A stretch of DNA of 62,063 bases, from positions 1 through 62,063 of IMG/VR virus record IMGVR_UViG_3300021962_000104. One strand, written 5' to 3'. The notes beneath the pieces were generated by a model. The model ran no database searches and was not told the origin of the DNA. It saw only the letters and a list, made by a program, of their open reading frames with translations. This document shows, one piece after another, positions 13,679 to 48,862 of this stretch (within the stretch, counting starts at the first letter, position 1; every line of letters starts with the position of its first letter). Source of the DNA: a virus. Both the position numbers and the translations under genes were made by a program.

Positions 13679-13862
13679 TTGGGCTGAATACGTTGCTTTC
13701 GCCGCGCAAGATGCGCTGGTGAAGGTTCCGTGTCCGCGTTGTGATGGGTACTGGTTCCAGGATATTGAGCCAGAGACTGGTTTCCCATACACTTGTTTTT
13801 GTTGCGGGAACGATTCAATTTCGTTCCGTAAGTATGAAGTTGAGGAAGAGCATTATGTCTAG
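13671..13862 (+). CDS. Zinc-ribbon protein, 63 aa
   Basis: Two CxxC pairs (CPRC and CFCC, 22 residues apart) form a zinc ribbon: VKVPCPRCDGYWF and YTCFCCGND. It overlaps the preceding gene by 8 bases. Small zinc ribbons of this type are frequent in phage early regions; the partner is unknown. Confidence 0.6.
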   Translation: MANWAEYVAFAAQDALVKVPCPRCDGYWFQDIEPETGFPYTCFCCGNDSISFRKYEVEEEHYV

Positions 13863-13983
13863 GACAAAGCGTGGCAACGTGGTTGCCAAGGATCTGCGCT
13901 CGCCGAAGTATGCGATGCGTGTGGTCCCTCTACACAAGCAGTACAATCGCGCGAAGGCAAAGCGTAACTGGAGCGTGGCATGA
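13855..13983 (+). CDS. Small basic protein with ArfA-like core, 42 aa
   Basis: 42 residues, strongly basic (MSRTKRGNVVAKDLRSPKY, then MRVVPLHKQYNRAKAKRNW). The core D-L-R-S-P-K-Y-x-x-R-V followed by a Lys/Arg tail resembles the ribosome-rescue factor ArfA (LLxDPLFRQRV then a basic tail). Similar small proteins occur in T4-like phages. The similarity is short, so it is only a suggestion. It overlaps both neighbours. Confidence 0.5.
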   Translation: MSRTKRGNVVAKDLRSPKYAMRVVPLHKQYNRAKAKRNWSVA

Positions 13984-14090
13984 CACTTGTACTCATTCGA
14001 CTGGCAATCTACGGATTGCTGGTTCTTTATGCTGTCCCGATTCTTTTTCGGGACGTCAAGTATGTCCTGCAGTTCTGGGGTCTGGTGTGA
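13980..14090 (+). CDS. Single-span membrane peptide, 36 aa
   Basis: ATG 13980 overlaps the previous stop (ATGA). A hydrophobic stretch (LVLIRLAIYGLLVLYAVPIL) covers most of the N-terminal half. Function unknown; such peptides can alter the host inner membrane. Confidence 0.45.
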   Translation: MTLVLIRLAIYGLLVLYAVPILFRDVKYVLQFWGLV

Positions 14091-14287
14091 ACGACGAAGA
14101 CATCGATGGTCCTGCGCCGACAGCTCACGTTCACTGCCAATTCTGTAGTGAATGGAAGCCAGCTGATATAGTTGAATTTCTTGACATTCAAGAAGACATT
14201 GACGGCAAAGATATCATGATTTTCTCTTGCCCTTCTTGTAAACATACGGTACAATCATTCGTGGTGCTGAAATATTCTGGAGATTAA
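14087..14287 (+). CDS. Zinc-ribbon protein, 66 aa
   Basis: GTG 14087 overlaps the preceding stop; GGGG lies six bases upstream. CQFCSEW and CPSCKHT form a CxxC-CxxC zinc ribbon separated by an acidic strand-rich segment. It is the second zinc ribbon in 600 bases. Confidence 0.5.
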   Translation: MNDEDIDGPAPTAHVHCQFCSEWKPADIVEFLDIQEDIDGKDIMIFSCPSCKHTVQSFVVLKYSGD

Positions 14288-27056: not shown

Positions 27057-28025
27057 ATGTCTATATTGGTGACGGGTGGATGTGGTTTCATTGGTAGTAA
27101 TTTTGTTCGTCGTTATGCAAGTCTATACGATGATCGAATCATGGTGCTGGATGCGCTGACCTATGCAGCCAATAAACAAAACATAGAAGGTACAGGGGCA
27201 GTTATCGCTGTTGGTAACATTGCATCGCGCGAGTTCGTTGAACCGCTGATACGCAACTTTCGCCCAAAGACCATTGTAAACTTTGCTGCTGAAAGTCATG
27301 TGGATAATTCCATTCGTGACTCTAAGCCATTCGTATACAGCAATGTGTTAGGCACTGTCAATCTACTTGATTGCGTATTGGCTGTTGATCCAAGCATTCG
27401 CTTTGTGCATGTTTCAACCGACGAAGTATATGGCTCGCTGAGTTCATCTGATCCAGCGTTCAGCGAAACCACTGCATATGATCCGCGCAGTCCATACTCT
27501 GCTTCCAAGGCTGCATCAGATCACTTTGTAATGGCATATCATCATACGCATGCTTTGGATACTGTAATCACCAACTGCTCAAACAACTATGGTGCTTATC
27601 AGCATGCAGAGAAGTTTGTGCCAACTGTAATTCGTAAAGCATTGAAGAATGAACCTATCCCTGTCTATGGCAAGGGTCATAATATTCGCGACTGGCTGTA
27701 CGTTGAAGATCACTGCCAAGCCATCATTGACGTAATTGAGCGTGGTCGCACAGGACATAAATATAACATTGGCGGTGGATGTCAGGTGAATAATCTATTC
27801 CTTGCCAATCTAATCATTGACATGTGCCGCTCGGCATCAAAGATTGAATTTGTAACTGATCGCAAAGGTCATGATTTTAGGTATGATGTTTCTTATGATA
27901 AGATACATCTAGAACTTGGATGGAAACCAACTACCAGTCTAATCCCTGGTATGGAGAAAACCATTCAGTGGTATCGACAGAATATGGAGTGGCTTGAACT
28001 ATGCAGACCCTCGGTGTCATCCTAG
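27057..28025 (+). CDS. rmlB: dTDP-glucose 4,6-dehydratase
   Basis: 322 residues. Rossmann GGCGFIGSNFVRR (TGxxGxxG), NFAAESHVDNSI, the catalytic region VSTDEVYGSL, and YSASKAASDHFV with the Y-x-x-x-K pair. NNYGAYQHAEKFVP and IPVYGKGHNIRDWLYVEDH are diagnostic for RmlB/RfbB. It converts dTDP-glucose to dTDP-4-keto-6-deoxyglucose. It opens a six-gene module with rmlA, a 3-dehydrase, an oxygenase, rmlC and rmlD. Confidence 0.92.
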   Translation: MSILVTGGCGFIGSNFVRRYASLYDDRIMVLDALTYAANKQNIEGTGAVIAVGNIASREFVEPLIRNFRPKTIVNFAAESHVDNSIRDSKPFVYSNVLGTVNLLDCVLAVDPSIRFVHVSTDEVYGSLSSSDPAFSETTAYDPRSPYSASKAASDHFVMAYHHTHALDTVITNCSNNYGAYQHAEKFVPTVIRKALKNEPIPVYGKGHNIRDWLYVEDHCQAIIDVIERGRTGHKYNIGGGCQVNNLFLANLIIDMCRSASKIEFVTDRKGHDFRYDVSYDKIHLELGWKPTTSLIPGMEKTIQWYRQNMEWLELCRPSVSS

Positions 28026-28882
28026 CTGGAGGCAAGTCTAGTCGTTTGTTCCCAGCAACACTTGTAACAACCAAACAAGTATTGCCAATCTACGACAAGC
28101 CTTTAATATATTATCCTATATCAACGCTAATGCTGGCTGGCGTTCGCGAATTCTTGATTATAACTAATCCAAAAGAGAAGCCAATCTTTGAGGAATTATT
28201 CTATGACTCAGAGAACACTCTGGGTATTAAAGTGATGTTTGCTACTCAGGATTATCCAGCAGGTATCGCTGATGCATTCAATATTGTAAACGAACAATTC
28301 CTTGGTGGTTATGATCGCTATGCCTTAGTTCTAGGTGACAATATTTTCTATGGTGCGGGCATGAGTGAGTTGTTACATGAAGCACATTACGACGATCAAG
28401 AACGCGCATATTGTTTCTTGACTAAGGTTCACGATCCTGAACGATTCGGTGTCGCAGAACTTTCAGATCAGGGTGGTGTGATGTCTATTGAAGAGAAACC
28501 AGAACATCCAAAGAGCAATCTTGCAATCACTGGATTGTATTTCTTCCCAAAAAATGTGTTGGATAGGATTCGTAAATTGAAACCCTCTAACCGAGGTGAA
28601 TTAGAAATCACTGATCTATTGAAGACTTACATGGAGACTGGTGATCTAACAGGAATTAAACTGTGGCGCGGAGTGGTTTGGTTTGATACTGGTACACCAG
28701 ATTCATTAATTGAAGCGTCTAACTTTGTACAAACTATACAAAAACATCAGGAAGTTTTGGTTGGCTCTCCGCACGAAATAGCGTATAATAAGTATTGGAT
28801 TACAAAAGATCAACTAAACACAACTGCATTGCTATGTGGTAAATCATCATATGGCAAACTTCTTTCTTCTTTGGAGGATTAA
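28001..28882 (+). CDS. rmlA: Glucose-1-phosphate thymidylyltransferase
   Basis: 293 residues. GVILAGGKSSRLFPATLVT is the nucleotide-binding signature (GGxGxRL), with KQVLPIYDKPLIYYPIS, VLGDNIFYG and GELEITDLLKTYM, all typical of RmlA. It makes dTDP-glucose from glucose-1-phosphate and dTTP. The start overlaps rmlB by 25 bases. Confidence 0.92.
   Translation: MQTLGVILAGGKSSRLFPATLVTTKQVLPIYDKPLIYYPISTLMLAGVREFLIITNPKEKPIFEELFYDSENTLGIKVMFATQDYPAGIADAFNIVNEQFLGGYDRYALVLGDNIFYGAGMSELLHEAHYDDQERAYCFLTKVHDPERFGVAELSDQGGVMSIEEKPEHPKSNLAITGLYFFPKNVLDRIRKLKPSNRGELEITDLLKTYMETGDLTGIKLWRGVVWFDTGTPDSLIEASNFVQTIQKHQEVLVGSPHEIAYNKYWITKDQLNTTALLCGKSSYGKLLSSLED
28761..28789 (+). promoter_or_regulatory. Possible internal promoter TTGGCT-N17-TATAAT
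   Basis: TTGGCT (28761-28766) and TATAAT (28784-28789) near the end of rmlA, upstream of the 3-dehydrase. Weak -35; no ATG at +7. Confidence 0.3.
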
Positions 28883-30189
28883 TGGAAATTGAAAGTTTAA
28901 TTAGAGATATCATTCAGCATCATGGGATGCCTAAGTATGCATCATACAATCCAAAGGAGTTTAACCCAGAGAAAGATAATGTATTTTATTCTGGACCTTA
29001 TTGGGATGAGAATGAAGTTATTGCTGGTGTGACTGCATTTCTAACTGGTAAATGGTTAGTTTCTGGAGAAAATGTAGCCAAGTTTCAATGGAGATTTTGT
29101 CGCAAGTTTAACGTGAAGCATGCACACATGGTGAACTCAGGATCATCTGCAAATTTAACGATGGTTACTGCATTGAAGAAACATTTGGGATGGAAAGACG
29201 GAGATGAAGTAATCGTATCTCCAGTTGGATTCCCAACCACCATTGCTCCAATTGTGCAAAATAATCTGAAGCCAACTTTCATTGATATTGAATGGTCAAC
29301 ATTAAATTTCGATTTAACTTTGATTGAGTCGAGAATCACAGATAGAACAGTAGCAATCTTTGTATCTCCAGTGCTGGGTAATCCACCAGACATGGATGTG
29401 CTGAGGATGATTGCGGAAAAGCATAACTTGGTATTGGTTGGCGACAATTGCGATTCATTGGGCAGTAAGTGGGATGGCAAGTTGCTGACCGACTACTACT
29501 ATTCGTGGACAACTTCTTTCTACCCAGCACATCATATGACAACTGGCGAAGGTGGTATGGTCTGCTCTAATGACGAAGAATTGATTAATACTGTTCGTTC
29601 TATTTCATGGTGGGGTAGAGATTGTCGATGCGTTGGTTCTGCTAACCTCTTGGCTTGTGGTACATGTGGCAATCGTTTTGATAAGTGGTTGGAAGGTTAT
29701 GATGGGATTATTGATCACAAATATCTTTTCACCAATATGGGATACAATTTAAAGCCACTGGATCTGCAAGGCGCAATTGGTATTGAACAATTGAAAAAGA
29801 TTGATCAAATTGATGTCAAGCGCAGAGAAAACTTTTCGACTATCAAAGAAATGTTTGCTGTAGTTCAAGGTGTTAGAGTTGCTAGTAACTTAGAAAAGTC
29901 TGATCCATCTTGGTTTGGTGTACCATTGGTTTGCGATAACTCTAAGTTGAAAGAAGAACTGCAACAATTCTTGGAGGATAACAGAATCCAGACTCGTAAT
30001 TATTTTGCAGGTAATATTTTATTGCATCCTGGATACAAACACTTAGATAACGCAGCAGACTATCCTATGTCTAATCTTGCGCTTTCCCATGTATTCTTTG
30101 TGGGATGCCCTCCACACTACAACAAGAGAGTGTTTGATTATTATAGATCAGTGCTAGAAAAATGGAGAAGTTTGCATGATATCGTATGA
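28882..30189 (+). CDS. rfbH: NDP-4-keto-6-deoxyhexose 3-dehydrase (RfbH/E1-like)
   Basis: 435 residues, DegT/DnrJ aminotransferase fold. In the active-site segment SFYPAHHMTTGEGGMV the usual PLP-binding lysine is replaced by His (H217), as in the E1/ColD 3-dehydrases that use PMP/PLP without forming the lysine aldimine. A Cys-rich stretch (RDCRC, then LACGTCGNRF) resembles the [2Fe-2S] site of E1, so it would need an electron donor. It would turn a 4-keto-6-deoxy sugar nucleotide into a 3-deoxy product, towards 3,6-dideoxyhexoses. The usual donor is CDP-linked; here the neighbours make dTDP-sugars, so the real substrate is uncertain. Confidence 0.85.
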   Translation: MEIESLIRDIIQHHGMPKYASYNPKEFNPEKDNVFYSGPYWDENEVIAGVTAFLTGKWLVSGENVAKFQWRFCRKFNVKHAHMVNSGSSANLTMVTALKKHLGWKDGDEVIVSPVGFPTTIAPIVQNNLKPTFIDIEWSTLNFDLTLIESRITDRTVAIFVSPVLGNPPDMDVLRMIAEKHNLVLVGDNCDSLGSKWDGKLLTDYYYSWTTSFYPAHHMTTGEGGMVCSNDEELINTVRSISWWGRDCRCVGSANLLACGTCGNRFDKWLEGYDGIIDHKYLFTNMGYNLKPLDLQGAIGIEQLKKIDQIDVKRRENFSTIKEMFAVVQGVRVASNLEKSDPSWFGVPLVCDNSKLKEELQQFLEDNRIQTRNYFAGNILLHPGYKHLDNAADYPMSNLALSHVFFVGCPPHYNKRVFDYYRSVLEKWRSLHDIV

Positions 30190-30928
30190 TGCTATTTTGG
30201 AAATAGAAAATGGTGAATTGTGTGAGGAACCATTTAATCACATAATCATCGATGATTTCTTCACAGAAGACTTTGCAATTAAACTATCAAACCAATTTCC
30301 TGAATATAATAATTCTCCTTGGTATAACTATGACAATCCACTAGAAGTCAAGCGCGCAATGAATTTTTGGGATAAATTCCCACCAGAAACCTTTCAAGCA
30401 TTTTGGATTTTGTGTCAACAGAAGTTCGCTTTTCTGTTATCTAGAAAATTCAACGCTCAATTGCATGCAGATTATGGATTGAATGGTGGTGGCTGGCATA
30501 TGCACGGTAGAGGTGGTAAGTTAAACATACACCAAGATTATTCTATTCACCCAAAGATGAACATGCAGAGAAAGTTAAATATTATCATATATCTTTCACA
30601 AGAATGGGATTGCGATTGGAATGGTGGTCTGCAATTTTGGTCGCATGATGAGGAGGATTTCAGACCAAAAGAATTAGTCAAAACCATAGATGTGAGGTTT
30701 AATCGTGCTGTGATTTTTGACACTACTCAAAATTCTTGGCATGGATTTCCAGAACCAATTACTTGCCCAGAGGGAGTATATAGAAAATCGATTGCGGTGT
30801 ATTATGTTATGAATCCAACACTAAACGCAGACACTAGAACCAGAGCACTATATTTCCCAACTAAAGAGCAAGAAAATGATCCTAATGTTTTGAGGTTGAT
30901 TGAATTGAGGAGGGATGTGCAGAGATGA
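30176..30928 (+). CDS. 2OG-Fe(II) oxygenase (prolyl-hydroxylase-like)
   Basis: 250 residues. H-x-D is in LNIHQDYSIHP (H119, D121), the central strand is LNIIIYLSQEWDCDWNGGLQFW, and the second His is H189 in SWHGFPEP, with an Arg (RKSIAVYY) to hold 2-oxoglutarate. Family: 2OG-Fe(II) oxygenase with hydroxylase activity. It lies inside the dTDP-sugar module with 14- and 4-base overlaps, so it could hydroxylate a sugar or the glycosylated product; a protein substrate is also possible. Confidence 0.82.
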   Translation: MISYDAILEIENGELCEEPFNHIIIDDFFTEDFAIKLSNQFPEYNNSPWYNYDNPLEVKRAMNFWDKFPPETFQAFWILCQQKFAFLLSRKFNAQLHADYGLNGGGWHMHGRGGKLNIHQDYSIHPKMNMQRKLNIIIYLSQEWDCDWNGGLQFWSHDEEDFRPKELVKTIDVRFNRAVIFDTTQNSWHGFPEPITCPEGVYRKSIAVYYVMNPTLNADTRTRALYFPTKEQENDPNVLRLIELRRDVQR

Positions 30929-31467
30929 GTGAACCTAAATTGATAACTGGAATGAATGAAGTAACTATCTTCGAAGATCATAGAGGTGGTTTCACTGAAT
31001 TATGGAACTCAACTAAGTCACCATTCAGTTCCTTGTATTTCATACAACAAAATGTTTCATTGAACAAGAAAAATGTATTTCGCGGACTACACTATCAAGA
31101 AGAATATCCCCAAGGTAAAATGGTATATGTGATGAGAGGTCGCGTTATAGATTTCATTATTGACTTGAGGAAGTGGTCTCCTAATTACAAGAAAGTTCAG
31201 ATGTATGAGTTGAGTGAGGATAAACTAAATTATCTTTGGGTCCCCCAGCACTTTGCTCATGCGTTTTTGAGTTTAGAAGACAACACTGCATTCTGCTACA
31301 ATGTATTTGATAATATTAGATACCCAGAGGACGAACGCTGTGTTTCATTTTTGACTGTGCCAGAAATAGTCAATGAGGTGGTAAAACATGTTCTTCTTGA
31401 AGACATTATCATAACTGATAAAGATCGTAATGGTTTACACATAGATGAGGCACCTGACTATGATTGA
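30925..31467 (+). CDS. rmlC: dTDP-4-dehydrorhamnose 3,5-epimerase
   Basis: 180 residues. FEDHRGGFTELWN, NVFRGLHYQ (the RmlC signature containing the catalytic His), VMRGRVIDFIIDLRKWSPN and WVPQHFAHAFLSLED all match the cupin-fold epimerase. It epimerises C3 and C5 of dTDP-4-keto-6-deoxyglucose. Confidence 0.92.
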   Translation: MSEPKLITGMNEVTIFEDHRGGFTELWNSTKSPFSSLYFIQQNVSLNKKNVFRGLHYQEEYPQGKMVYVMRGRVIDFIIDLRKWSPNYKKVQMYELSEDKLNYLWVPQHFAHAFLSLEDNTAFCYNVFDNIRYPEDERCVSFLTVPEIVNEVVKHVLLEDIIITDKDRNGLHIDEAPDYD

Positions 31468-32287
31468 ACGAGTTTTGTTGTTTGGATCTAATGGACAAAT
31501 CGGTAATTCAATGATTGAATTGCTGGAGACATCGTATTCTACAATCGCAATGAATAGCGATAACATAGATTACAATTCTAGAGAAGAATTGGATAAGTTA
31601 TTCAAGTTCATCAGACCCCATCATGTGATCAATTGCGTGGCTTATACTGATGTAGATGGAGCTGAGAAGCCAAACAATCATGATAAGTGTCGCTATCTGA
31701 ATTATTCTTTTCCGCTACACTTAAATTATTTGTGCGCTCAGTATAATTCCCAGTTCATTCATTTTGGAACGGATTATGTCTTTGATGGTACTAAAGAATC
31801 CTATACAGAGAAAGATTATCATAACCCATTAAATTTCTATGGATCAACTAAGTCTGAGATTGAACGATCATTGAATTATAGTAAGACCAAACTTTTCAGA
31901 GTCCAGTGTGTATATTCTGGTAGAAATAAGAACTTCTATAAGAGCATTGATGCATTGGCTGATAAATTGGAATCCATCAATGTGATAGATGATCAGATCA
32001 CTTGCCCAACTCATGCTGCCTGGATTGCAGAAATGGTCTTCAATGTATTAGATGAACCCCAATATGGTATATTTAATCTAAATCCTGACGGTAATTGCAG
32101 TTTTGCAGAATTCGCAGAACTTATAGTCGGAGATAGATGTAAGATTAATAAGATAACTACAGAGGAATACGTTGCGTCCAAGACCAAGAGACCGAAAAAT
32201 GGTGTTCTGAATAATTCCAAGTTCAAGCAAACCTTTAATTTTTCTTCTCTGCCTACATGGGATCAAGTATACAAAAAGTATAAATAA
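31460..32287 (+). CDS. rmlD: dTDP-4-dehydrorhamnose reductase
   Basis: 275 residues from ATG 31460 (8-base overlap with rmlC). VLLFGSNGQIGNSMIELL is the NAD(P)-binding GxxGxxG; VINCVAYTDVDGAEK and FHFGTDYVFDGT-type segment (HFGTDYVFDGTKESYTE) with YGSTKSEIE (Y-x-x-x-K) are diagnostic. It completes dTDP-L-rhamnose synthesis. Its last codons contain the late promoter of the next block. Confidence 0.9.
   Translation: MIERVLLFGSNGQIGNSMIELLETSYSTIAMNSDNIDYNSREELDKLFKFIRPHHVINCVAYTDVDGAEKPNNHDKCRYLNYSFPLHLNYLCAQYNSQFIHFGTDYVFDGTKESYTEKDYHNPLNFYGSTKSEIERSLNYSKTKLFRVQCVYSGRNKNFYKSIDALADKLESINVIDDQITCPTHAAWIAEMVFNVLDEPQYGIFNLNPDGNCSFAEFAELIVGDRCKINKITTEEYVASKTKRPKNGVLNNSKFKQTFNFSSLPTWDQVYKKYK
32279..32286 (+). 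promoter_or_regulatory. T4-type late promoter TATAAATA
   Basis: Exact TATAAATA overlapping the rmlD stop, 31 bases before the first gene of the capsid-core block. T4 late promoters consist of this motif alone. Confidence 0.7.
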
Positions 32288-32316: not shown

Positions 32317-33507
32317 ATGCTATCATTTACATCGTTCCTAACAGAAGCCAAAGTCGAGAAACTAAAGCACCTAGAGCACGCTGAAGATCATATTGTCAAT
32401 TCGGGCGCAGCTGGTTTTGAGCATGCATCCAAAACTCTAATCGGCGTTCATAACGCACTTCAGGGACGTAAATCTCGAGTCAAGATCACCACCAAGTGGG
32501 ACGGTGCACCTTCTATCGTCTTTGGAACTCATCCTGAGAATGGTAAGTTCTTTGTTGCTTCTAAGTCTGCATTTAACAAGAATCCAAAGATCAATTATAC
32601 TGACAAGGATATCGAAAAGAACCATGGGCATGCTCCTGGTCTAGTCGAGAAACTCAAGCATGCGCTGGCTCATCTACCCAAGGTCACACCAAGAGGTCGT
32701 GTATTTCAGGGTGACATGATGTACACTCCAGGAGATGTTTCTTCATCTTCTACGCATTATAACTTTAAGCCAAACACCATCAACTATTCTATTCGTAAGG
32801 ACAGCGAAGAAGGCAAGAAAGTGGGTAAAGCCAAGGTGGGCGTGGCTGTGCATACCGAATACAAGGGTCGCACACTAGACTCAATGAAAGCGCACTTTGG
32901 TCCTAATGTCAATTCTTTTGGCAAGCATCGCGACGTCCATGTAATTGATACTCAGACTGGAATTGAAGATCTCAAAGATACCTATAAGCCAGAGCATCGT
33001 CGTGAATTTATTTCTTCTATGCGCAAGGCTCAACAGTTACATCGCGGTCATGACTATCGTCATCTACAGGGTCATGAGATGCACGTTGCCACTTATATCA
33101 ATCAGAACGTGCGCAGTGGTGAAACTGCATCCGTAGAGGGATTGATGAGACACGCTGCAGCTCGCAACGCAGCTGCTGGTTCTAAACTCAAGTCAGCTGC
33201 AGGTAAAGCCAAGGTCGCTGCAAAAAATTCAGCAGATATGGAACATATCAAAAAGAACAAAGCCGCATTTCAAAGAACTTTTGAGATTCATCGTCACCTA
33301 CAAAATGCCAAGCATGCATTGGTAGATGCGCTAAATGATAGCGGTGATTATGAACATAGCATTGAGGGTAGAAAGACTAGCGGAGAAGGGCATGTTGCTA
33401 TTATCAATAACATGCCAACCAAGTTAGTCAGTCGTCGTCAAGGAGACTTCGCTGCGTCGAATCTTCTTGCTGGTGGTGTCAAAGCAAAAATGGCAGAAAG
33501 AAAATGA
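32317..33507 (+). CDS. KxDG nucleotidyltransferase/ligase-like internal protein
   Basis: 396 residues. The N-terminus MLSFTSFLTEAKVE matches the T4 capsid-targeting sequence pattern (aromatic at 4 and 7, L-x-E at 8-10), where the prohead protease cuts after the E. Residues ~60-75 (TTKWDGAPSIVFG) look like motif I of DNA/RNA ligases (K-x-D-G), with FVASKS and RGRVFQGDMMYT possibly later motifs. Related proteins occur in aquatic myoviruses (I recall a DUF6267 name). An active nucleotidyl transfer is not proven. It would be packaged into the capsid and injected with DNA. An Ala/Lys-rich segment near residue 285-310 may be flexible. Confidence 0.6.
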   Translation: MLSFTSFLTEAKVEKLKHLEHAEDHIVNSGAAGFEHASKTLIGVHNALQGRKSRVKITTKWDGAPSIVFGTHPENGKFFVASKSAFNKNPKINYTDKDIEKNHGHAPGLVEKLKHALAHLPKVTPRGRVFQGDMMYTPGDVSSSSTHYNFKPNTINYSIRKDSEEGKKVGKAKVGVAVHTEYKGRTLDSMKAHFGPNVNSFGKHRDVHVIDTQTGIEDLKDTYKPEHRREFISSMRKAQQLHRGHDYRHLQGHEMHVATYINQNVRSGETASVEGLMRHAAARNAAAGSKLKSAAGKAKVAAKNSADMEHIKKNKAAFQRTFEIHRHLQNAKHALVDALNDSGDYEHSIEGRKTSGEGHVAIINNMPTKLVSRRQGDFAASNLLAGGVKAKMAERK

Positions 33508-35741
33508 GCAGAGCAACATTCACATACGGTCGCTTTAATCCTCCAACAGAAGCAGGACATGGCAAGTTAGTGAAGCAAGTCATGGATCATGCTGAAAGCA
33601 CTGGTGGAAAGCATTATATCTTTGCTTCTCATTCTCGAGATTCGGAAAAGAATCCTCTATCACATCAGGTCAAAACTAGAGCTATGCGCAAGATGTTTCC
33701 TGGCGCAAATGTTGTTTCCAAGAAACATCCAAATCTAATTGGTGTAATGCAGCATTTAGAAAAACAGGGTCACACTCATGTCACAATGTACGCTGGATCT
33801 GATCGTGTTCCAGAGTACAAAAGAATTGTGAATAAATACAATGGTAAAGATTTTAAGTTTAAGAAAATTGAAGTCAAGTCAGCTGGTTCTCGCGATCCAG
33901 ATGCTGAAGGTGCGGAAGGTATGTCTGCCTCTAAGTTGCGTGGGTTAGTTTCCGCTGGTAAGCGCAAAGAGTTTATTTCACATTATACAAACAGAAAACT
34001 TGGTGCTGAAATTCACGACAAGGTAAAAAAAGCAATGAGCGAATCAAGAGCATTATTCTTATTGGGCGGTCCTGGCAGCGGCAAGGACTATGTCATCAAT
34101 AATATCCTATCGCGTTTTAACGTCGTTGAAGTGCAGATGGATCAGATTCTAAATGGATCAATCAATGAAGTATTGGAGTCTGGTTCCAATCTACTCATCA
34201 ATGCTCCAATTGATCTGGAGAAGATTGCATTGGTTCGCGCGACTCTTGGTGAATCCTATGAGTTTGATTACACTCTAGTGTCAGTGACCAATAAGGTCAG
34301 TCGTGAGCGCAATGATATGCGTGCTCGTCCAATGAATGAATCTACTCGTATTCGCAAGTGGCTAGATGCTGAAAGAACCACAGATATGTTCGAAGGCGTT
34401 TTCAAGTTTGAGAATTCATTGAATCTTTCTGAAGCATCACAGAAAGAACTATCTGTATTCCAAATGCAAATTGAAGCATTCCTAAAGTTCATGATTGAGA
34501 ACGGCTATGTCTTTGAGAAAAAGGTTGCTGAGCCAACTGGAGATCTAAAGAAGGCTTGCTGGAAGGGATACACTGCCGTTGGGATGAAGATGAAGAACGG
34601 TCGCAAGGTTCCAAACTGCGTGCCAGTTGAAGAAAGTGATAATCTAAAGGGCACTCCAGTAGTTTCTTTGGCTGATGTTTCTAAACCTAGTGATTTTAGA
34701 AAAGATCGCTATGGAAGAAATGTGCCCAAGAAATTGAAGAAAAATGATCCAAGAGTGAAGTATGTGAAAGAGGCAGTTGGAAAAGAATCAAAGATCGTTC
34801 CAGTAACTGGAATGGGTGGTGTGCAAGGATTTCGCGTCACCAATCGTAGACTCAAGCAATCAAGATCTTTCAATAATATGAAAGATGCTGAAGCCTATGC
34901 TGCCAGAGGAGGCAAGCAACAGAAGGAAGCATTGGAATATGGTACAACGGAAACCAGAAATGCTTATGCTTCAATGACTCCTGGACAGACAGTTGATACC
35001 ACACCAACTTTGAAAACAAAGAAACTACCAAAGAGCAAGAAAACTCCTGGTGAAGATTATGATGCTAGAATGGGTGGCTCAGGTGGATACGCTGTTGGTT
35101 TGACGCAAACTGAATCAGTATCCCTAGAAGAAGCAGTACAGTATCATCTAGAGAATCAGATTCCGTTCGCTGAGAATATCTTCCGTCCAGGAAGTGATAT
35201 GTTCTTTGAACTGATCCGTGAAGCCAAGAATCTATATGCTAATGGTGACTACACTCCTGCTGATGAATACGAACAGGAAGTGCTAGAAAGTGATCTAGGT
35301 GAAACCGCAATGTACGAAGGTATGGAAGTGCTTCTTGACTTCCCATTCCTAGAAGAAGAAAAGACGCCAAAGCATGTTCGTAAATTGAGCAAAGATGAGG
35401 CTGACGAAGAAGAAGCTGTCAAGACTTCGATTCAGAAAGAAGAAGCCTGTTGCGATGACTGCGACGATTTGAACGAAGAAGATGAAACAGGTGGTAAGGG
35501 CATCGGCAAGCCATGGCGTGAGGGTGGTGGCGGTGCTGTCTATGTGCGCACAGGCGATGGTGGCGTCAAGAAGGTTCGCTTTAGTCAGTCTGGAATGGCA
35601 AAGAAATATCGCGATCCAGGTCGTTTGAAATCATTCATGGCTCGCCATAATTGCCTAGGAAACAAGGATAAGACTTCGGCTTCCTACTGGGCATGCCGTT
35701 ATCCAAGATTCTTCAGCAATAGTGGTCAACTATGGTGGTAG
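33504..35741 (+). CDS. Multidomain nucleotidyltransferase/P-loop kinase, probable capsid-core protein
   Basis: 745 residues. Residues 1-~170: cytidylyltransferase-like domain, FTYGRFNPPTEAGHGKL (the GRFxPxTxGH signature) and GMSASKLRGLV (S-x-S/T-x-x-R). Residues ~185-300: P-loop domain, FLLGGPGSGKDYVINNIL (Walker A about 188-195). After that come low-complexity acidic linkers joining small modules: KKACWKGYTAVGMKMKNGR, an acidic helix region, a CCDDCDD Cys cluster, and a final module with KYRDPGRLKSFMARHNCLG and YWACRYPRF. The domain order recalls NadR (NMN adenylyltransferase plus kinase) but substrate is unknown. Similar polyproteins in aquatic myoviruses are virion components. Confidence 0.6.
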   Translation: MSRATFTYGRFNPPTEAGHGKLVKQVMDHAESTGGKHYIFASHSRDSEKNPLSHQVKTRAMRKMFPGANVVSKKHPNLIGVMQHLEKQGHTHVTMYAGSDRVPEYKRIVNKYNGKDFKFKKIEVKSAGSRDPDAEGAEGMSASKLRGLVSAGKRKEFISHYTNRKLGAEIHDKVKKAMSESRALFLLGGPGSGKDYVINNILSRFNVVEVQMDQILNGSINEVLESGSNLLINAPIDLEKIALVRATLGESYEFDYTLVSVTNKVSRERNDMRARPMNESTRIRKWLDAERTTDMFEGVFKFENSLNLSEASQKELSVFQMQIEAFLKFMIENGYVFEKKVAEPTGDLKKACWKGYTAVGMKMKNGRKVPNCVPVEESDNLKGTPVVSLADVSKPSDFRKDRYGRNVPKKLKKNDPRVKYVKEAVGKESKIVPVTGMGGVQGFRVTNRRLKQSRSFNNMKDAEAYAARGGKQQKEALEYGTTETRNAYASMTPGQTVDTTPTLKTKKLPKSKKTPGEDYDARMGGSGGYAVGLTQTESVSLEEAVQYHLENQIPFAENIFRPGSDMFFELIREAKNLYANGDYTPADEYEQEVLESDLGETAMYEGMEVLLDFPFLEEEKTPKHVRKLSKDEADEEEAVKTSIQKEEACCDDCDDLNEEDETGGKGIGKPWREGGGGAVYVRTGDGGVKKVRFSQSGMAKKYRDPGRLKSFMARHNCLGNKDKTSASYWACRYPRFFSNSGQLWW

Positions 35742-36022
35742 ACGAAGATCATCCTTACGATGATCAGAAACTAAATAAGACTGAGTTCATACGCACCTTT
35801 TCGTGCGATGTGCTCGATGAAGAATTGAAATGGCACTATGATCTAAATGATCGTATTGTTGAGGTTTTGCAGGGAGAGGGTTGGGAACTACAGTTCGACG
35901 ACGCTCTTCCTAGTATGCTGAAAGTTGGTGATGTAATCTACATTCCCGCTAGATTGCATCATCGTATAAAGCGCGGGACAACGGATCTAAAACTTAGAAT
36001 AAGAGAGTACGATAATGGCTGA
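35732..36022 (+). CDS. Small cupin-like protein, 96 aa
   Basis: KWHYDLNDRIVEVLQGEGW, then LKVGDVIYIPARLHHRIKR is the cupin pattern (G-x-G-W strand, PARxxHR metal-ligand-like His). It overlaps both neighbours by 8-10 bases. Without a clear first HxH motif the metal site may be incomplete. Function unknown. Confidence 0.6.
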   Translation: MVVDEDHPYDDQKLNKTEFIRTFSCDVLDEELKWHYDLNDRIVEVLQGEGWELQFDDALPSMLKVGDVIYIPARLHHRIKRGTTDLKLRIREYDNG

Positions 36023-37340
36023 TCTACCAAAGATGTGGGGCAAAATGTCATCGGCTTTGCAGAAGAAGTGGTGGGCTGCTCACGGTGGTGGCAAACCATT
36101 CCCATCAGCAGAAGGCAGATCGGCTGCAGCTGCAAAGAGATCACCTGCAAAGAAGGGTGTGGCAACCTCTGAACTAAGTCGCGGCGAGAAAACTGCATCA
36201 GGAAAGATATCAGATGTTCGTCGTGAAAACATGCGTCGAATGAAAGCAGCGATGGAACGTGGAACTGCTGGTGCGCCACAAAAGACTTCAGGTGCAGGTG
36301 GATCTGGAGCATATAGTCCATCTAGCATGAAGGACATTAGAGCAGCAATCAAATCAGGGGCTGGGGTTCGCACAGGCTTGGCTGGGCATTCAAATTACGA
36401 TGAGGTTCTTCCAGAAAAGGATAAAAAGAAAATGAAAGAAGAAAAAGATCTAACAGGTGCACTAAGAAAGTCCATCGAAAGCAAAGGCAAGCACACAGTT
36501 ACTCGCAACAAGGCTGGAACTCTTGTTCTGCGCAAGATGAAGAACGAAGAAGTCGAGCAGGTGGATGAAGGTGCATCTCGACATTTGAGATATACTGGAA
36601 CAGTAGGCGGTCAAGATTATTCTATGACGATTCCAAGAAATGGTGATCTTGAAGATCACATGACTGCCAGAAAAATTAAGAAACAGAATCCTCATCTTAA
36701 ACCACACCATGTAACAGCACTCGTTAATGCTACTGGTGAAGACGAAGAGCATGTTAATGTGGAACATGGAGGTAAAAAATATAAGGTTCACGTTGTTAAT
36801 CATCAAGAACCAAAAATGGTATACAACGAAGAAATCGAACAGGTGGATGAAAATTGGGTGAGTTTGAGCACCCCGATCGGAGCAGGTTACAGGTCTATAG
36901 AGGATCACGAGAATAATCTAAAGGCAGCAGGTGTTTCTTTTCGCAAAAAACGCTCACCATACGAAAATCACGTTGCGTTTGAAGTTCCTCCGAAACATGA
37001 ACGTAAGGCGAAGAAGATCCTTTGGCGAGAAGAAGTCGAGTACATCGAAGAAAAACTAACAGCAGGTGATCCAGCATCAAAGTGGATCTCTGACTTCGTG
37101 CATTCTGACAATCCTAAGTTTGAAGGTAAGAGCAAGAAAGAGCGTATGAACATGGCTCTTGGTGCTTACTATGCAAAGAAACGCGCAAAGAATGAAGAAG
37201 TGGTGCAGGAAAAACTAGATCCTGTTGGTTCTGAAACTACAGACATCAATAATGATAAGAAAGTAGACAAGACAGATGCTTATCTGCATGCTCGTCGTCA
37301 GGCGATTGGCAAGGCAATTGCCAAGAAGAAGGGGTTGTAA
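36015..37340 (+). CDS. Modular capsid-core (prohead/internal) protein
   Basis: 441 residues, highly basic modules separated by acidic linkers of one type: EEVEQVDEG, EEIEQVDEN, EEVEYIEEK, EEVVQEK. Modules include a Lys/Ala-rich N-terminal part (WGKMSSALQKKWWAAHGGG), two small beta-rich units, TAGDPASKWISDFVHSDNP with KKERMNMALGAYYAKKRAK, and a dockerin/EF-hand-like loop (DINNDKKVDKTDAYL). Modules like these recur in virion proteins of aquatic T4-like phages. The linkers may be prohead-protease sites. Likely an internal scaffold or packaged DNA-binding protein. Confidence 0.6.
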   Translation: MADLPKMWGKMSSALQKKWWAAHGGGKPFPSAEGRSAAAAKRSPAKKGVATSELSRGEKTASGKISDVRRENMRRMKAAMERGTAGAPQKTSGAGGSGAYSPSSMKDIRAAIKSGAGVRTGLAGHSNYDEVLPEKDKKKMKEEKDLTGALRKSIESKGKHTVTRNKAGTLVLRKMKNEEVEQVDEGASRHLRYTGTVGGQDYSMTIPRNGDLEDHMTARKIKKQNPHLKPHHVTALVNATGEDEEHVNVEHGGKKYKVHVVNHQEPKMVYNEEIEQVDENWVSLSTPIGAGYRSIEDHENNLKAAGVSFRKKRSPYENHVAFEVPPKHERKAKKILWREEVEYIEEKLTAGDPASKWISDFVHSDNPKFEGKSKKERMNMALGAYYAKKRAKNEEVVQEKLDPVGSETTDINNDKKVDKTDAYLHARRQAIGKAIAKKKGL

Positions 37341-37341
37341 A

Positions 37342-38130
37342 ATGGCAAAAGTAGGACAAAGAGGTCGTTTGGTATTAGATAAGAAGACATCAACAGGTGC
37401 TGGGTTTAAAGGCAAAGTCACCAAGGTTGAGGGCGGCATGGTTTATTTACAACTTGATGGTGAAGGTAAATTTGGTCCTCGCACCGTAAAAGGATCATTG
37501 AGCCGTTTTAGGGCTGAAGATACCAACTCGGAGGGCGATACGATGAATGAAGCCATCAAACCTAAGAGTAAAGAAGACGAAGGCGAGTATGGCTACGAAG
37601 GTGACATGGCAATGTCTCAGTTGCGTAGCATCATTCGTAACTCTCAGGCAATGCTGGACAATCTAGAGCCAGAGACAGATCTACCTGAATGGGTGCAGTC
37701 TAAGATCACACTAGCCAAAGACTATATTGAAACTTCTGCTAATTATCTAATGTCAGAGTTGGAAGAAGAAGTCAAACCAGTGGATGAGGGTCTACTTAGT
37801 GGAACACTCAAGGTTGCTGGAAAGGTTTTCAATGCTCCAGCATATTCTTGGGCTGGCGAGAAATTGGAAAAGCGCGAGAAGGCTAAGAAACTAGCAGCAG
37901 AAAGGGCTGCAAGAAAAGCCAGAAGAACAACAAAGAAAGCGCAAACTAAAGAAGTATCTGAATCAGCAGAGCAAAATGATCGTGTTAAGAAAGTGATGGA
38001 TAAGTACAGAGGTATTCGCAATAAAGTAAATACCAAACCAGAATTAGAAGTAAGTATTCGTAACACTTCGCCAAATATCATGGGAAATATTCCTGGACAT
38101 GAAGGACCAAAACCAAATGCAAACTTTTAA
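37342..38130 (+). CDS. Capsid-core-type protein, 262 aa
   Basis: Starts at ATG 37342, one base after the preceding stop codon. An SH3/KOW-like N-terminal domain (GQRGRLVLDKKTSTGAGFK, GKVTKVEGGMVYLQLDG) is followed by a helical unit (GDMAMSQLRSIIRNSQAML, LPEWVQSKITLAKDYIETS) and the linker EEEVKPVDEG, then a very basic Ala/Arg/Lys helix. The shared linker ties it to the 36015 protein. Likely virion-internal. Confidence 0.55.
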   Translation: MAKVGQRGRLVLDKKTSTGAGFKGKVTKVEGGMVYLQLDGEGKFGPRTVKGSLSRFRAEDTNSEGDTMNEAIKPKSKEDEGEYGYEGDMAMSQLRSIIRNSQAMLDNLEPETDLPEWVQSKITLAKDYIETSANYLMSELEEEVKPVDEGLLSGTLKVAGKVFNAPAYSWAGEKLEKREKAKKLAAERAARKARRTTKKAQTKEVSESAEQNDRVKKVMDKYRGIRNKVNTKPELEVSIRNTSPNIMGNIPGHEGPKPNANF

Positions 38131-38572
38131 GCAATTTCTAGAGGAAGAGGAAGATCTGTCTATTGAAATAGAAGCAGATCAATTTGTTGCTCAATTGGAC
38201 GATATCAATGATGCATTAGATGCAGTCACTGAGGATCCATTTGTAAACAGCGCAGTGTTTATCAATGCTGTTCGTGGTACTCTAGAAAGATTTGGTATTC
38301 TGATTCCTCCTGGATATGAAATGCCAATGTTAAGTCTAGATGCAGAGACAGTTTATTCTCTCGGCGAGTCTGGATATTTCTTATACATTACTCACAATAC
38401 TACTCCAGATGTTGGCGTAGATGGATATGCAACCATTGTAAATCAAGAAGATCTAGATGATCTACTTCAGATGGAAGACCCAGAGCCATTGGAGCCAATT
38501 CCAACTGTATCTCCATATCTTCGCCAGACACGTAGAACTAACGACGACAGTGGTAACGATAACGAATATTAA
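38117..38572 (+). CDS. Acidic protein with capsid-targeting-like N-terminus
   Basis: 151 residues from ATG 38117 (14-base overlap). The start MQTFKQFLEEEED matches the T4 capsid-targeting pattern (F4, F7, L-x-E at 8-10). ATG 38099 would hide this motif, so 38117 is preferred. The body is acidic with short strands (GYFLYITHNTTPDVGVDGY). Candidate packaged internal protein. Confidence 0.55.
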   Translation: MQTFKQFLEEEEDLSIEIEADQFVAQLDDINDALDAVTEDPFVNSAVFINAVRGTLERFGILIPPGYEMPMLSLDAETVYSLGESGYFLYITHNTTPDVGVDGYATIVNQEDLDDLLQMEDPEPLEPIPTVSPYLRQTRRTNDDSGNDNEY

Positions 38573-38575
38573 TTT

Positions 38576-38962
38576 ATGTTGTATGATCTAAACCATGATA
38601 CAATCTTGATCTACGCTATCAAAAGTTATGATAATCTTAACTATGTAAAAAGCGAGTTTCAAGAAGATTACAAAGCGTTCAAGTATGTCAAGAGACTGCT
38701 ACAACGCTATCGTATGTCAGGTGAACTTAGAGAAAAGTTATTGCTAAATCATCTGAATCTGATATACAATGTGTTTGGTGTAGAGGCAGGAACGAGAATA
38801 CTATTTTATAAGATTGACGAACAAGATTATAGTGCATTGAAAACTTTTTGCGTGTTTTTAAATACAATGCCAGATAGGATTTCGGGAATCAACGGCAAAG
38901 ATTTAATTTCTAGTGACATACCTGTAGATCTAAAGATAGTAGAACTGTTAAGGAAAATTTGA
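38576..38962 (+). CDS. Conserved T4-like phage protein (DUF7207-type), 128 aa
   Basis: LYDLNHDTILIYAIKSYDN, FKYVKRLLQRYRMSGELRE, LLLNHLNLIYNVFGVEA and RILFYKIDEQDYSALKTF are motifs shared by a family of unnamed proteins of T4-like phages (I recall DUF7207). Helical. It sits in the structural block; role unknown. Confidence 0.65.
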   Translation: MLYDLNHDTILIYAIKSYDNLNYVKSEFQEDYKAFKYVKRLLQRYRMSGELREKLLLNHLNLIYNVFGVEAGTRILFYKIDEQDYSALKTFCVFLNTMPDRISGINGKDLISSDIPVDLKIVELLRKI

Positions 38963-39477
38963 TGGAACAGGAAAACATAGACGAGGCTGGAATTGTAAAA
39001 GTTGGAAAGCAATTCGCTCATCATCGAATCACATCTAAGAAAAAGAAATCAATGCTTCAACGAATCAAAGATAAAATTGTTGGCAAAAAGAAATATGACA
39101 GCGATGAAGTGTATCTAAACGCAGAAGATGCTGCAGTCATGAGCGTCGGTGCTGGAGTTGTTGCTGGCATGCCAGATGCTGATCCACCAGAACTCACTCC
39201 TGTTCGAAAGAAAAAGAAGTTTAAGGTACTTAGAAGAAGACTAATGGGTGAGGGAAGAGTCACCACCAAGCCAACAGGTAATGGTTTCCATAGAGTGTTT
39301 GTAGATGGTGAAGAACATCCGCACGTTCATATTGTAAATGGTTCTGGTGGAGTTTCTGGATATGGTCGCAACGTATATGGTATACATTATAGCAAAGCCA
39401 ATAAGACTCGCTGGATTGGTAGTCTAGCAAAGACTAAAGCGCATCTAAACAAAATGCTAGATGATGGTGCGATGTGA
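38962..39477 (+). CDS. Virion-associated hypothetical protein, 171 aa
   Basis: Starts at ATG 38962 (overlaps the previous stop). A short acidic N-terminus (MEQENIDEAGIVKVGKQF) with I-D-E may act like the targeting/cleavage peptide. A Lys-rich stretch, a hydrophobic Ala/Val/Gly stretch (AAVMSVGAGVVAGMP) and a C-terminal His/Gly-rich module (HRVFVDGEEHPHVHIVNGS) follow. Not recognised; probably virion-internal. Confidence 0.5.
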   Translation: MEQENIDEAGIVKVGKQFAHHRITSKKKKSMLQRIKDKIVGKKKYDSDEVYLNAEDAAVMSVGAGVVAGMPDADPPELTPVRKKKKFKVLRRRLMGEGRVTTKPTGNGFHRVFVDGEEHPHVHIVNGSGGVSGYGRNVYGIHYSKANKTRWIGSLAKTKAHLNKMLDDGAM

Positions 39478-39665
39478 TGTTGAGATTCAGTGAATATCTA
39501 AATGAAAGCGGACCATTGCGCAAACCTAAGAAACTAAAGCCATTGAAAGATAGACTGAAAGGTGGTATTCCTGGTGCTGTAAATCTAAACGCATGGATGG
39601 ACGAAAAGAAGCGTCGCAAGATTGAGTATATGAAGAACCGTGAAAAGCGCGATGAAAACACTTGA
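39477..39665 (+). CDS. Small basic protein with capsid-targeting-like N-terminus, 62 aa
   Basis: MLRFSEYLNESGPL fits the T4 capsid-targeting pattern (F4, Y7, L-x-E at 8-10). The rest is very basic (KPKKLKPLKDRLKGG, MDEKKRRKIEYMKNREKR), like T4 internal proteins after cleavage. ATG 39477 overlaps the previous stop. A good candidate for an ejected internal protein. Confidence 0.6.
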   Translation: MLRFSEYLNESGPLRKPKKLKPLKDRLKGGIPGAVNLNAWMDEKKRRKIEYMKNREKRDENT

Positions 39666-45984: not shown

Positions 45985-47871
45985 ATGAATAGACTACCCA
46001 CGATCTATCAAGATTTTATTCATATTTCACGTTACGCAAGATACAGCGACGAAGTTGGTCGCCGCGAGACTTGGAATGAAACTGTCGATCGCTATGTAAA
46101 CTTTTTCAAGGAAAGAACTGAGAATAATAAGAAGATTCCTTGGGATGATTTGCGTAACGCAATTCTAAATCTTGACGTGATGCCTTCCATGCGTTGTCTA
46201 ATGACCGCAGGTGAGGCATTGAATAAAGATAACGTGGCTGGCTATAATTGCTCTTATCTGCCGATTGATAATCCAAAAGCCTTTGATGAACTGATGTATG
46301 TTCTAATGTGCGGCACTGGCGTTGGCTTCTCAGTTGAATCGCGCTATACAAACAAGATGCCAGAGGTTCCAGAAGAACTACATGAGACCGATACTACAAT
46401 CGTGTTTGCTGATTCCAAGATTGGTTGGGCAAGTGGTTATAGAGAATTCGTTGGTCTACTTTATACTGGTAAGTTGCCTAAGTGGGATGTATCAAAGATT
46501 CGCCCATCAGGTGCAAGGCTCAAGACCTTCGGTGGACGAGCATCAGGACCAGAACCTCTAGTTGATCTTCTAAACTTCACACTCAATATTTTCAAGAAGG
46601 CACGTGGTCGCAAGTTAAGCACCATTGAGTGTCATGATATTGTTTGTAAGATTGCAGACATTGTCGTCGTTGGTGGCGTTCGCCGTTCAGCGTTGATTTC
46701 GCTATCAGATCTCAACGACGATCAGATTCGCCACGCTAAGTCTGGACAGTGGTGGTTGAGTGATGGGCATCGCGCTCTGTCAAACAACTCAGCAGTGTAT
46801 GAGACTAAGCCTGACATGGATACATTTATGAACGAGTGGGTAGCGTTGTATATGTCCAAGTCGGGTGAGCGTGGCATTTTCTCTCGCCAAGCAGCAAAGA
46901 ATGTAGCAGCACGCAATGGTCGTCGCGAACACAATCATGACTTTGGCACCAATCCTTGCTCTGAGATTATTCTTCGTGCTAATGAGTTCTGTAATCTATC
47001 AGAAGTTGTAGTGCGCGCAGGTGATTCTATTACTGATCTAAAGCGCAAGGTGCGTTTGGCTACCATCATTGGTACGCTACAGTCTACACTGACTGACTTC
47101 CGTTTTCTAAACAAGAAGTGGAAGAAGAACTGTGAAGAAGAAAGATTGCTAGGTGTATCATTGACAGGTATCTGCGATCATAAGACGCTGAATAATCCAA
47201 CCAGCCCACGACTACGCGAGTGGTTGGATGAGTTGCGCCTACACGCTGTTGAAACCAACGCTGAGTTTGCAGACATTCTGGACATTCCAGCATCAGCTGC
47301 TATCACCTGCGTCAAGCCATCAGGTACTGTTTCGCAGTTGGTAGACTCAGCGTCAGGTATTCATCCTCGCTATGCGCAGTATTACATTCGTCGTGTTCGT
47401 GCATCAAAGAATGATCCACTGGCTGCGTTCATGGTAAGCAAGGGATACCAAGCAGAAGAAGATTTCTATGGTAAGTCCAACTGGGTGTTCTCCTTCCCAA
47501 TGAAAGCACCAAAGGGTTGTATTACACGCAATGATATGACTGCGATTGAGCAGCTGGAACTTTGGAAGATCTATCAGGATCATTGGTGTGAGCACAAGCC
47601 ATCTATCACTGTTTACGTTGGTGATGATGAGTGGATGGACGTTGGCGCATGGGTGTACAAGAACATCACTTCATTGTCTGGTGTTTCTTTCCTACCACGC
47701 GACAACGGTACATATCGTCAGGCTCCATACGAAGAAATTACTGAAGAGCAGTATAAAGATTTGCTTTCTAAGCAGAACCTAGATATAGTATGGACTGACT
47801 TTATGGAAGAAACTGATACAACCGAAGGTGCGCAGAATCTAGCATGCGTCGCGGGAGTATGTGAGATATAA
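45985..47871 (+). CDS. nrdJ: Ribonucleotide reductase, class II (B12-dependent)
   Basis: 628 residues from ATG 45985. GYNCSYLPIDNPKAFDELM (substrate-site Cys), MCGTGVGFSVES, TNPCSEIILRANEFCNLSE (the NPCSE active-site loop with the radical Cys), VKPSGTVSQLVDSASGIHP and the C-terminal redox pair CVAGVCEI fit monomeric adenosylcobalamin-dependent reductases. T4 uses a class I enzyme; class II needs coenzyme B12 but not oxygen. It makes deoxynucleotides for replication. Confidence 0.92.
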   Translation: MNRLPTIYQDFIHISRYARYSDEVGRRETWNETVDRYVNFFKERTENNKKIPWDDLRNAILNLDVMPSMRCLMTAGEALNKDNVAGYNCSYLPIDNPKAFDELMYVLMCGTGVGFSVESRYTNKMPEVPEELHETDTTIVFADSKIGWASGYREFVGLLYTGKLPKWDVSKIRPSGARLKTFGGRASGPEPLVDLLNFTLNIFKKARGRKLSTIECHDIVCKIADIVVVGGVRRSALISLSDLNDDQIRHAKSGQWWLSDGHRALSNNSAVYETKPDMDTFMNEWVALYMSKSGERGIFSRQAAKNVAARNGRREHNHDFGTNPCSEIILRANEFCNLSEVVVRAGDSITDLKRKVRLATIIGTLQSTLTDFRFLNKKWKKNCEEERLLGVSLTGICDHKTLNNPTSPRLREWLDELRLHAVETNAEFADILDIPASAAITCVKPSGTVSQLVDSASGIHPRYAQYYIRRVRASKNDPLAAFMVSKGYQAEEDFYGKSNWVFSFPMKAPKGCITRNDMTAIEQLELWKIYQDHWCEHKPSITVYVGDDEWMDVGAWVYKNITSLSGVSFLPRDNGTYRQAPYEEITEEQYKDLLSKQNLDIVWTDFMEETDTTEGAQNLACVAGVCEI

Positions 47872-47872
47872 T

Positions 47873-48862
47873 ATGAAGGTTGCACTAGTTTGCATCGCAA
47901 GATGGGAAGAAAACTACATTGATGAGTGGATAAGATACAATAAATTACTCAATTTCGATAAGATCTTTATCTATGATAATGGTAATGAGTGGAAGAGAGA
48001 TAGTCTTGTTTTCACCGACCCAGATGTAGTATTGGTTAATTGGGAAGGTGATGGTCAAGCAGTTGACGATGTTCCTCCAGCTCCACCAGAAAATTCAGTA
48101 CCAGTAAACCAATCTCAAAACAATTGGAGACAAGAAAGACATAACAGGAACAGAAGAAGAGGTGTGGGATCACCAGAATCAAAACTAAAATCAACAAATT
48201 TGAATAAGACGAATAATAAACAGGTCAGAGCATATAATCATTTTCTAAACAACAATAGAAAAACTATGGAGTATGATTGGATTGCATTCTTAGATTGTGA
48301 TGAGTTTTTAGTATTGAAGAAACACGAAACTATACAGGACTTCATAGAAGAACATAATTTTGAAAAAGATGCTATAGGAATTTATACATACATATTTGGA
48401 GACAATGGATTACATGGAGTGGAGAATGGCAATTACTCTGTTTTAGAAAGATTCACTATGAGAAGAGAACGACATTTTCCTGCAAAAGAACGTCATGGTA
48501 TCAGTAAAACACCAGCATTTTTTATAAAGAGTATCGTTAGAAATACGCCTCATATAAAAATGCTTTCATCACATACTGCCAATATCCCATCAGTTGGCAC
48601 TTCTGGTGATTTAATACTTTGTGACACTGGTAAATTAACTTCATGGACTCATTATGGTATCAGAGATGTTGCTCAAATAAATCATTATTTCGGGAAAACT
48701 GCCGAAGAATTTCATAAAAAAATAGAAAGAGGTAGAGCAACTTCTGGAAGAAAAAGAACTATGGATGAGTTTTATCACCATAATATAAATGAAGTTGAAG
48801 ATACTGATGCATTGGAATTTTATCTTAAAAATTACTGGGTGAACTATGACTATGAAATTTAG
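47873..48862 (+). CDS. Glycosyltransferase family 92-like protein
   Basis: 329 residues from ATG 47873. KVALVCIARWEENYIDEWI and FDKIFIYDNGN are the opening strands of GT92/GT2-type enzymes; DWIAFLDCDEFLVLKK contains the D-x-D. A low-complexity insert rich in Asn, Arg and Pro (about 62-120) splits the domain. HYGIRDVAQINHYFGKT is a typical C-terminal GT92 motif. First of five overlapping sugar-transfer genes. Confidence 0.75.
   Translation: MKVALVCIARWEENYIDEWIRYNKLLNFDKIFIYDNGNEWKRDSLVFTDPDVVLVNWEGDGQAVDDVPPAPPENSVPVNQSQNNWRQERHNRNRRRGVGSPESKLKSTNLNKTNNKQVRAYNHFLNNNRKTMEYDWIAFLDCDEFLVLKKHETIQDFIEEHNFEKDAIGIYTYIFGDNGLHGVENGNYSVLERFTMRRERHFPAKERHGISKTPAFFIKSIVRNTPHIKMLSSHTANIPSVGTSGDLILCDTGKLTSWTHYGIRDVAQINHYFGKTAEEFHKKIERGRATSGRKRTMDEFYHHNINEVEDTDALEFYLKNYWVNYDYEI

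Follow-up and report, generated by a model that had tools for sequence, protein, structure and literature searches.

Putative T4-type capsid-targeting sequences on three proteins of an environmental phage

The internal proteins IPII and IPIII of phage T4 begin MKTYQEFIAE/A (the slash marks the cut), a ten-residue motif with aromatic residues at positions 4 and 7, leucine or isoleucine at 8 and glutamate at 10, which is processed by the gp21 protease and stands in front of unrelated mature parts. Suppressor genetics of IPIII assigns residues 4 and 7 to capsid targeting and residues 8 and 10 to processing (PMC9026906). T4 also packages and injects an enzyme, the ADP-ribosyltransferase Alt, which begins MELITELFDED and lies outside the strict form of this motif. 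The tag considered here is the already known T4 capsid-targeting sequence; what is new is the cargo. The DNA analysed is a 62-kb linear IMG/VR entry with T4-like replication genes (IMGVR_UViG_3300021962_000104, 62,063 nt, the whole of which is called the window), and the subject is three of its proteins, encoded from positions 32317 (the DUF6267 protein), 38117 (a 151-residue protein) and 39477 (a 62-residue protein). These are likely to carry a T4-type capsid-targeting sequence, to be packed into the head, cut after E10 and delivered with the DNA.

The first-pass annotation had described the three N-termini by the motif M-x-x-F-x-x-[F/Y]-L-x-E and likened them to the T4 internal proteins. All three fit, and the likeness holds for IPII and IPIII; T4 IPI and Alt do not fit the strict form used here, M..[FY]..[FYLI][LIVM].E. 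The three reading frames are real, and the observation stands and clearly exceeds chance: the 88 open reading frames (ORFs) of the window should yield ∼0.035 strict-motif starts, and its 304 candidate starts taken together 0.12, while none of the 336 internal ATGs of the window fits (2 of 3,860 over six genomes). The proposed search across the genome returned the same three starts and that of UvsX at 23109. Over all loci examined, the true motif gives 92 matches at likely starts, which fall into 13 families; the 14 control motifs, made by permutation or substitution, each reach 0-6. Counted by family, variants with the glutamate at position 9 or 11 (E9, E11), or with E10 replaced, are much rarer. 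In the T4 genome, which served as the positive control, only IPII, IPIII and gp61.1 match. Gene 61.1 (L327 18966-19130) encodes a 54-residue hypothetical protein starting MKTFKEFIKEDM, which may be an unrecognised T4 internal protein because its start fits the strict motif.

Conservation in homologues follows the positions that matter in T4 IPIII. Among 32 distinct N-termini of homologues of the DUF6267 protein, positions 4 and 10 do not vary (entropy 0 bits) and positions 7 and 8 vary little (0.70 and 0.63 bits), while the remaining positions up to 11, the start methionine aside, show 1.4-2.6 bits; the IMG/VR homologues keep the motif and vary in the surrounding residues. Homologues of the 151-residue protein, found in the flanks of DUF6267 loci (L004/L005, L008, L011), show a matching pattern and begin MLSFKQFITEQ, MLKFKEFIAEQ and MKAFLEFIKEQ. 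Another ATG in the same frame precedes 38117 by 18 nt; it is 38117, though, that has GAAGGA ∼10 nt before it, and the homologues begin at that same residue with M-x-x-F-x-x-F-[L/I]-x-E. The mature part of this protein is acidic (isoelectric point (pI) 4.1), and Pfam and PHROG searches with it gave no match. For the 62-residue protein the evidence consists of the motif, the position and a small basic character (mature pI 10.4) that makes it look like an internal protein. It fits the strict motif although a spurious minus-strand ORF had displaced its ORF in gene calling; GTG directly precedes its start, and its ATG overlaps the upstream stop codon as TGATG.

The first-pass annotation had further proposed looking beside the prohead protease gene. 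The ORF list of this 62-kb fragment contains no recognisable head genes, and no gp21-type protease was seen in it; that check was made in relatives, where a gp21-type protease is encoded by all three longer than 125 kb and by seven of 13 other tag-bearing records, most being fragments. Capsid proteins of the relatives carry LLTE/A, FLAE/A and LLGE/A at the expected place (type [F/L]L-x-E/A), the putative cut position being taken over from T4. T4 gp23 carries SFLTEA, which is identical to residues 6-11 of the window's DUF6267 protein.

Independent support comes from cyanophages, in whose virions proteins with such N-termini have been detected. In the published virion proteome of S-CREM2 (PMC10665884), the strict motif begins the SAM hydrolase gp6, the kinase gp14 and the cytidylyltransferase gp154; all three were detected and no undetected protein matches (Fisher p 0.013 over all coding sequences, 0.0027 with structural proteins excluded). 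A relaxed motif gives p 0.0003 with structural proteins excluded, with three undetected matches. The detected proteins gp13 and gp136 have close variants of the motif, and the detected Cas9 gp12 (L088 7704-10313) has a tag-like LRFASFMAEAA from residue 17, behind an extension of 16 residues; the long N-terminus of S-CRM01 g128 resembles that of this Cas9. The S-CRM01 kinase reported in virions begins MISFDQFLSEK, and the S-SM1 cytidylyltransferase T4-GC190, detected in virions (PMC3037559), begins MKKFSAFLNEA. In S-SCSM1, the virion-detected NMNAT gp91 begins MKSFLQFLKEA (detection according to PMC9602691 and the record annotation).

A scan of IMG/VR with a single degenerate DNA pattern, written to encode M-K-[S/T]-F-K-x-F-[L/I/F/M]-x-E, showed the tag on at least 52 unrelated families, and among the matches listed 115 of 129 were start-like. 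The tagged families include DUF6267, cytidylyltransferase, ART-PolyVal, DUF3990, methyltransferase, zinc protease and peptidoglycan-active domains. Because the tag stands on dozens of unrelated proteins, including enzymes found in virions, it probably marks proteins that travel in the capsid and reach the host along with the DNA. The broader proposal, in which aquatic T4-like phages at large share it as a transferable, general-purpose delivery tag that by itself predicts injected effectors, is somewhat favoured. With the same moderate confidence, its cargo would comprise the ligase-like DUF6267, NMNAT, ADP-ribosyltransferases, kinases, SAM hydrolase, methyltransferases and possibly Cas9. Within incomplete literature coverage, no paper was found that connects the tag with DUF6267 or with the enzymes of cyanophage virions, and a search for the tag in cyanophages returned one T4 review mentioning both terms. 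Most phage-injected proteins are unidentified, because virion proteomics exists for few phages; if the tag reliably marks packaged proteins, effectors could be read from sequence in uncultured phages. It would then also account for the NMNAT, kinase, SAM hydrolase and Cas9 in cyanophage virions, which the authors of the proteomes could not separate from contamination, and would suggest roles that can be tested for DUF6267, DUF6321 and numerous proteins without a known function.

Capsid packing, as claimed in the first-pass annotation, is thus well supported for the DUF6267 and 151-residue proteins, because the T4-critical positions are invariant, the relatives encode the protease, the tag resembles the capsid site, and tagged homologues or neighbours have been detected in virions. 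The best reading of these two sequences is that they are capsid-targeted and cut after E10. The 62-residue protein is probably targeted and cut likewise; its case is weaker because its only relative is in a near-identical contig. Packaging in this phage, the cut and injection would take the following course by analogy with T4. Late in infection, F4 and F/Y7 would dock each tagged protein onto the prohead core, and the gp21-type prohead protease would remove the tag by a cut after E10, a site of the kind also cleaved when the capsid protein matures. The mature protein would remain in the head beside the DNA and enter the next host cell at once, as T4 internal proteins do. The DUF6267 protein and its untagged NadR-like neighbour may be delivered as a single unit that works on NAD or on the ends of nucleic acids before the phage's genes are expressed; a delivered activity of this sort, for example against an NAD-depleting defence, is plausible. 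The window's putative cargo differs from IPII and IPIII in being unrelated in sequence: a conserved DUF6267 protein of 396 residues, an acidic one of 151 and a basic one of 62.

Several findings weigh against delivery by such a tag. The UvsX start at 23109 is a fourth strict-motif match; UvsX was set aside as a packaged protein, being a likely false positive, and the match is probably a coincidence, so single motif matches can be false. (The UvsX of L009 begins MDLFKNLMKET.) The IMG/VR scan had a matched control in which lysine takes position 10. It found 76 stretches, 45 of them start-like; most came from a few repeated families or were variants longer by one residue, so the excess of the tag is real although the control is not empty. 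In S-SCSM1, the tagged gp30 (MKTFKQFMSES, 106 amino acids) was undetected in the virion, and the association between tag and detection is non-significant for this phage alone (p 0.31). CsCl virion preparations may carry contaminants, according to the authors of PMC10665884 and PMC9602691. The DUF6267 proteins of S-PM2, S-SM1, S-RIM2 and S-CRM01 are untagged, and virion packaging of DUF6267 itself is therefore unobserved. The 62-residue protein has no independent homologue: a peptide-pattern search for relatives of it and of the 151-residue protein found only the near-identical contig. It also counts on this side that the window shows no recognisable head gene.

The UvsX match is also what a chance resemblance of the N-termini would lead one to expect. 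Chance has next to no probability, being ruled out by the expectation per window and the control motifs given above; homologues keep the motif while the flanking residues change, and the tag recurs on many unrelated families. It is contradicted for the DUF6267 and 151-residue proteins and possible for the 62-residue one. Another rival, which is very improbable, sees in the motif an amphipathic helix at the N-terminus that serves some other purpose (membrane contact, oligomerisation or expression) and puts virion detection down to contamination by abundant late proteins. Residues 4-8 are indeed predicted to be helical, and the proteome authors allow for carry-over, but such a helix leaves unexplained the conservation of E10 and of the four T4-critical positions, the rarity of shifted or substituted glutamates, and the lack of any undetected S-CREM2 protein with the strict motif. 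A further alternative accepts the tag as a real packaging signal and makes the proteins parts of the head assembly core or scaffold instead of injected effectors. The T4 core proteins gp22, gp67 and gp68 are likewise in the prohead and cleaved, and the repeat protein at 36015 shares a module with a protein at the gp67/gp68 position of the relative G003. Against this stand tagged enzymes with no obvious role in assembly (the S-CREM2 SAM hydrolase and kinase, and the ADP-ribosyltransferase, cytidylyltransferase and methyltransferase families elsewhere) and the invariant KxDG motif retained by DUF6267, so that an assembly-only role is unlikely. Packaging followed by delivery with the DNA is the preferred account of the three tagged proteins, which are listed with neighbouring genes in Table 1.

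Table 1. Positions of the tagged proteins, their putative capsid-targeting sequences and neighbouring genes in the window
Feature	Coordinates	Strand	Remarks
DUF6267 protein ORF	32317..33507	+	396 aa, starts MLSFTSFLTEA
Putative capsid-targeting sequence, DUF6267 protein	32317..32346	+	10 codons, MLSFTSFLTE
NadR-like cytidylyltransferase/NMNAT + P-loop protein	33504..35741	+	745 aa, no own tag; start overlaps DUF6267 stop
441-aa repeat protein	36015..37340	+	repeated EE[VI]E(Q/Y)[VI][DE]E (EEVEQVDE-type) peptides
151-aa protein ORF	38117..38572	+	starts MQTFKQFLEEE
Putative capsid-targeting sequence, 151-aa protein	38117..38146	+	MQTFKQFLEE
62-aa protein ORF	39477..39665	+	starts MLRFSEYLNES
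Putative capsid-targeting sequence, 62-aa protein	39477..39506	+	MLRFSEYLNE; motif match

The protein at 32317 is a clear member of DUF6267 (PF19782; phrog_455), with a Pfam match at 3.4e-94 and 316.7 bits against a gathering cut-off of 27. Thirty-two sequences share the invariant residues K60-x-D62-G63, E357-G358-x-V360 and K369-x-V371-x-R373, and the order KxDG (motif I), EGxV, KxVxR is that of DNA and RNA ligases (the covalent nucleotidyltransferase superfamily). A fold search of the PDB placed T4 DNA ligase (E 0.19) and the T. brucei RNA-editing ligase (E 0.42) as the top two matches, both non-significant, and a sequence search against the PDB gave coiled-coil noise with no ligase match. 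DUF6267 is thus possibly a ligase-like nucleotidyltransferase, and a candidate enzyme. In the structure model (predicted local distance difference test (pLDDT) 87.7), a short helix at residues 4-8 is followed by a disordered stretch at 11-16 (pLDDT <50) before the folded domain. The idea that the DUF6267 fold itself includes the motif was rejected, because the untagged cyanophage members start at the KHLEHLED core and the linker at 11-16 is disordered in the model.

The gene that overlaps the DUF6267 stop codon encodes a protein matching phrog_3041 (2.3e-48). Its translation contains a P-loop, GGPGSGKDYV, with only sub-threshold matches to P-loop families; it appears to join a cytidylyltransferase to a P-loop as in NadR, the P-loop part being a predicted kinase. 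It is homologous to the cytidylyltransferases or NMNATs S-SM1 T4-GC190, S-SCSM1 gp91 (34% identity over 245 residues) and S-CREM2 gp154 (31% over 152 residues), whose genes adjoin DUF6267 or lie in the same late cluster and whose products are tagged and reported in virions. The tag of the window, in contrast, is on the DUF6267 gene upstream, as in its clade, whereas S-SM1, S-SCSM1, S-CREM2, S-SSM7, P-SSM3 and S-RIM2 carry it on the cytidylyltransferase, in the strict form or as a start-codon variant. The two proteins are fused and tagged in L076, and fused and untagged in S-PM2; the jumbo-phage cytidylyltransferase used as outgroup is without the tag. Because the tag shifts between genes within one cluster, this distribution suggests that the DUF6267 and cytidylyltransferase proteins travel together.

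The window's relatives also encode tagged ADP-ribosyltransferase-like proteins, comparable to T4 Alt as head-carried enzymes; the part of the window that was examined yielded none. A 17-member family (G002 13721-14269, L027 8144-8680 and others), encoded shortly upstream of DUF6267, has a tag one residue shorter, MSFKRWLTEQ. Its YHGT stretch and weak PARP and ART-PolyVal matches recall Alt.

The repeat peptides of the protein at 36015 occur in three copies, compared with 0.3 in shuffles (whole window). A module that starts at one of the repeats matches (46%, E 2e-5) a protein whose gene in G003 stands between those for portal and protease; a different module matches the virion protein S-SCSM1 gp92 (43%, E 2e-7). 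Proteins with such repeats occupy this position, which in T4 is that of gp67 and gp68, in the relatives G001 (46720-48048) and G003 (124173-125495). The repeats may be additional prohead-protease sites, which would make this protein a candidate multi-site substrate, and the region may therefore encode a larger set of internal head proteins. Between the portal and protease genes of the phage contig G002 (133900-134856) lies a bacterial-looking secreted-protein gene (MIRLLFAAVITAATLITGVSNAQ...).

In a nucleotide search for named relatives of the 30-50 kb part of the window, the matches were all short and fell in genes for ribonucleotide reductase and thymidylate synthase. The stretch immediately before the tagged DUF6267 gene, at 27057-32287, is a run of genes resembling nucleotide-sugar synthesis, with dehydratase, nucleotidylyltransferase, aminotransferase, epimerase and reductase-like types as judged from the translations. 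Elsewhere, five tagged genes follow one another in L186 (5915-9422); they start MKTFKQFI-E or MKSFKSFINE, their bodies are unrelated, and together they look like an effector cassette.

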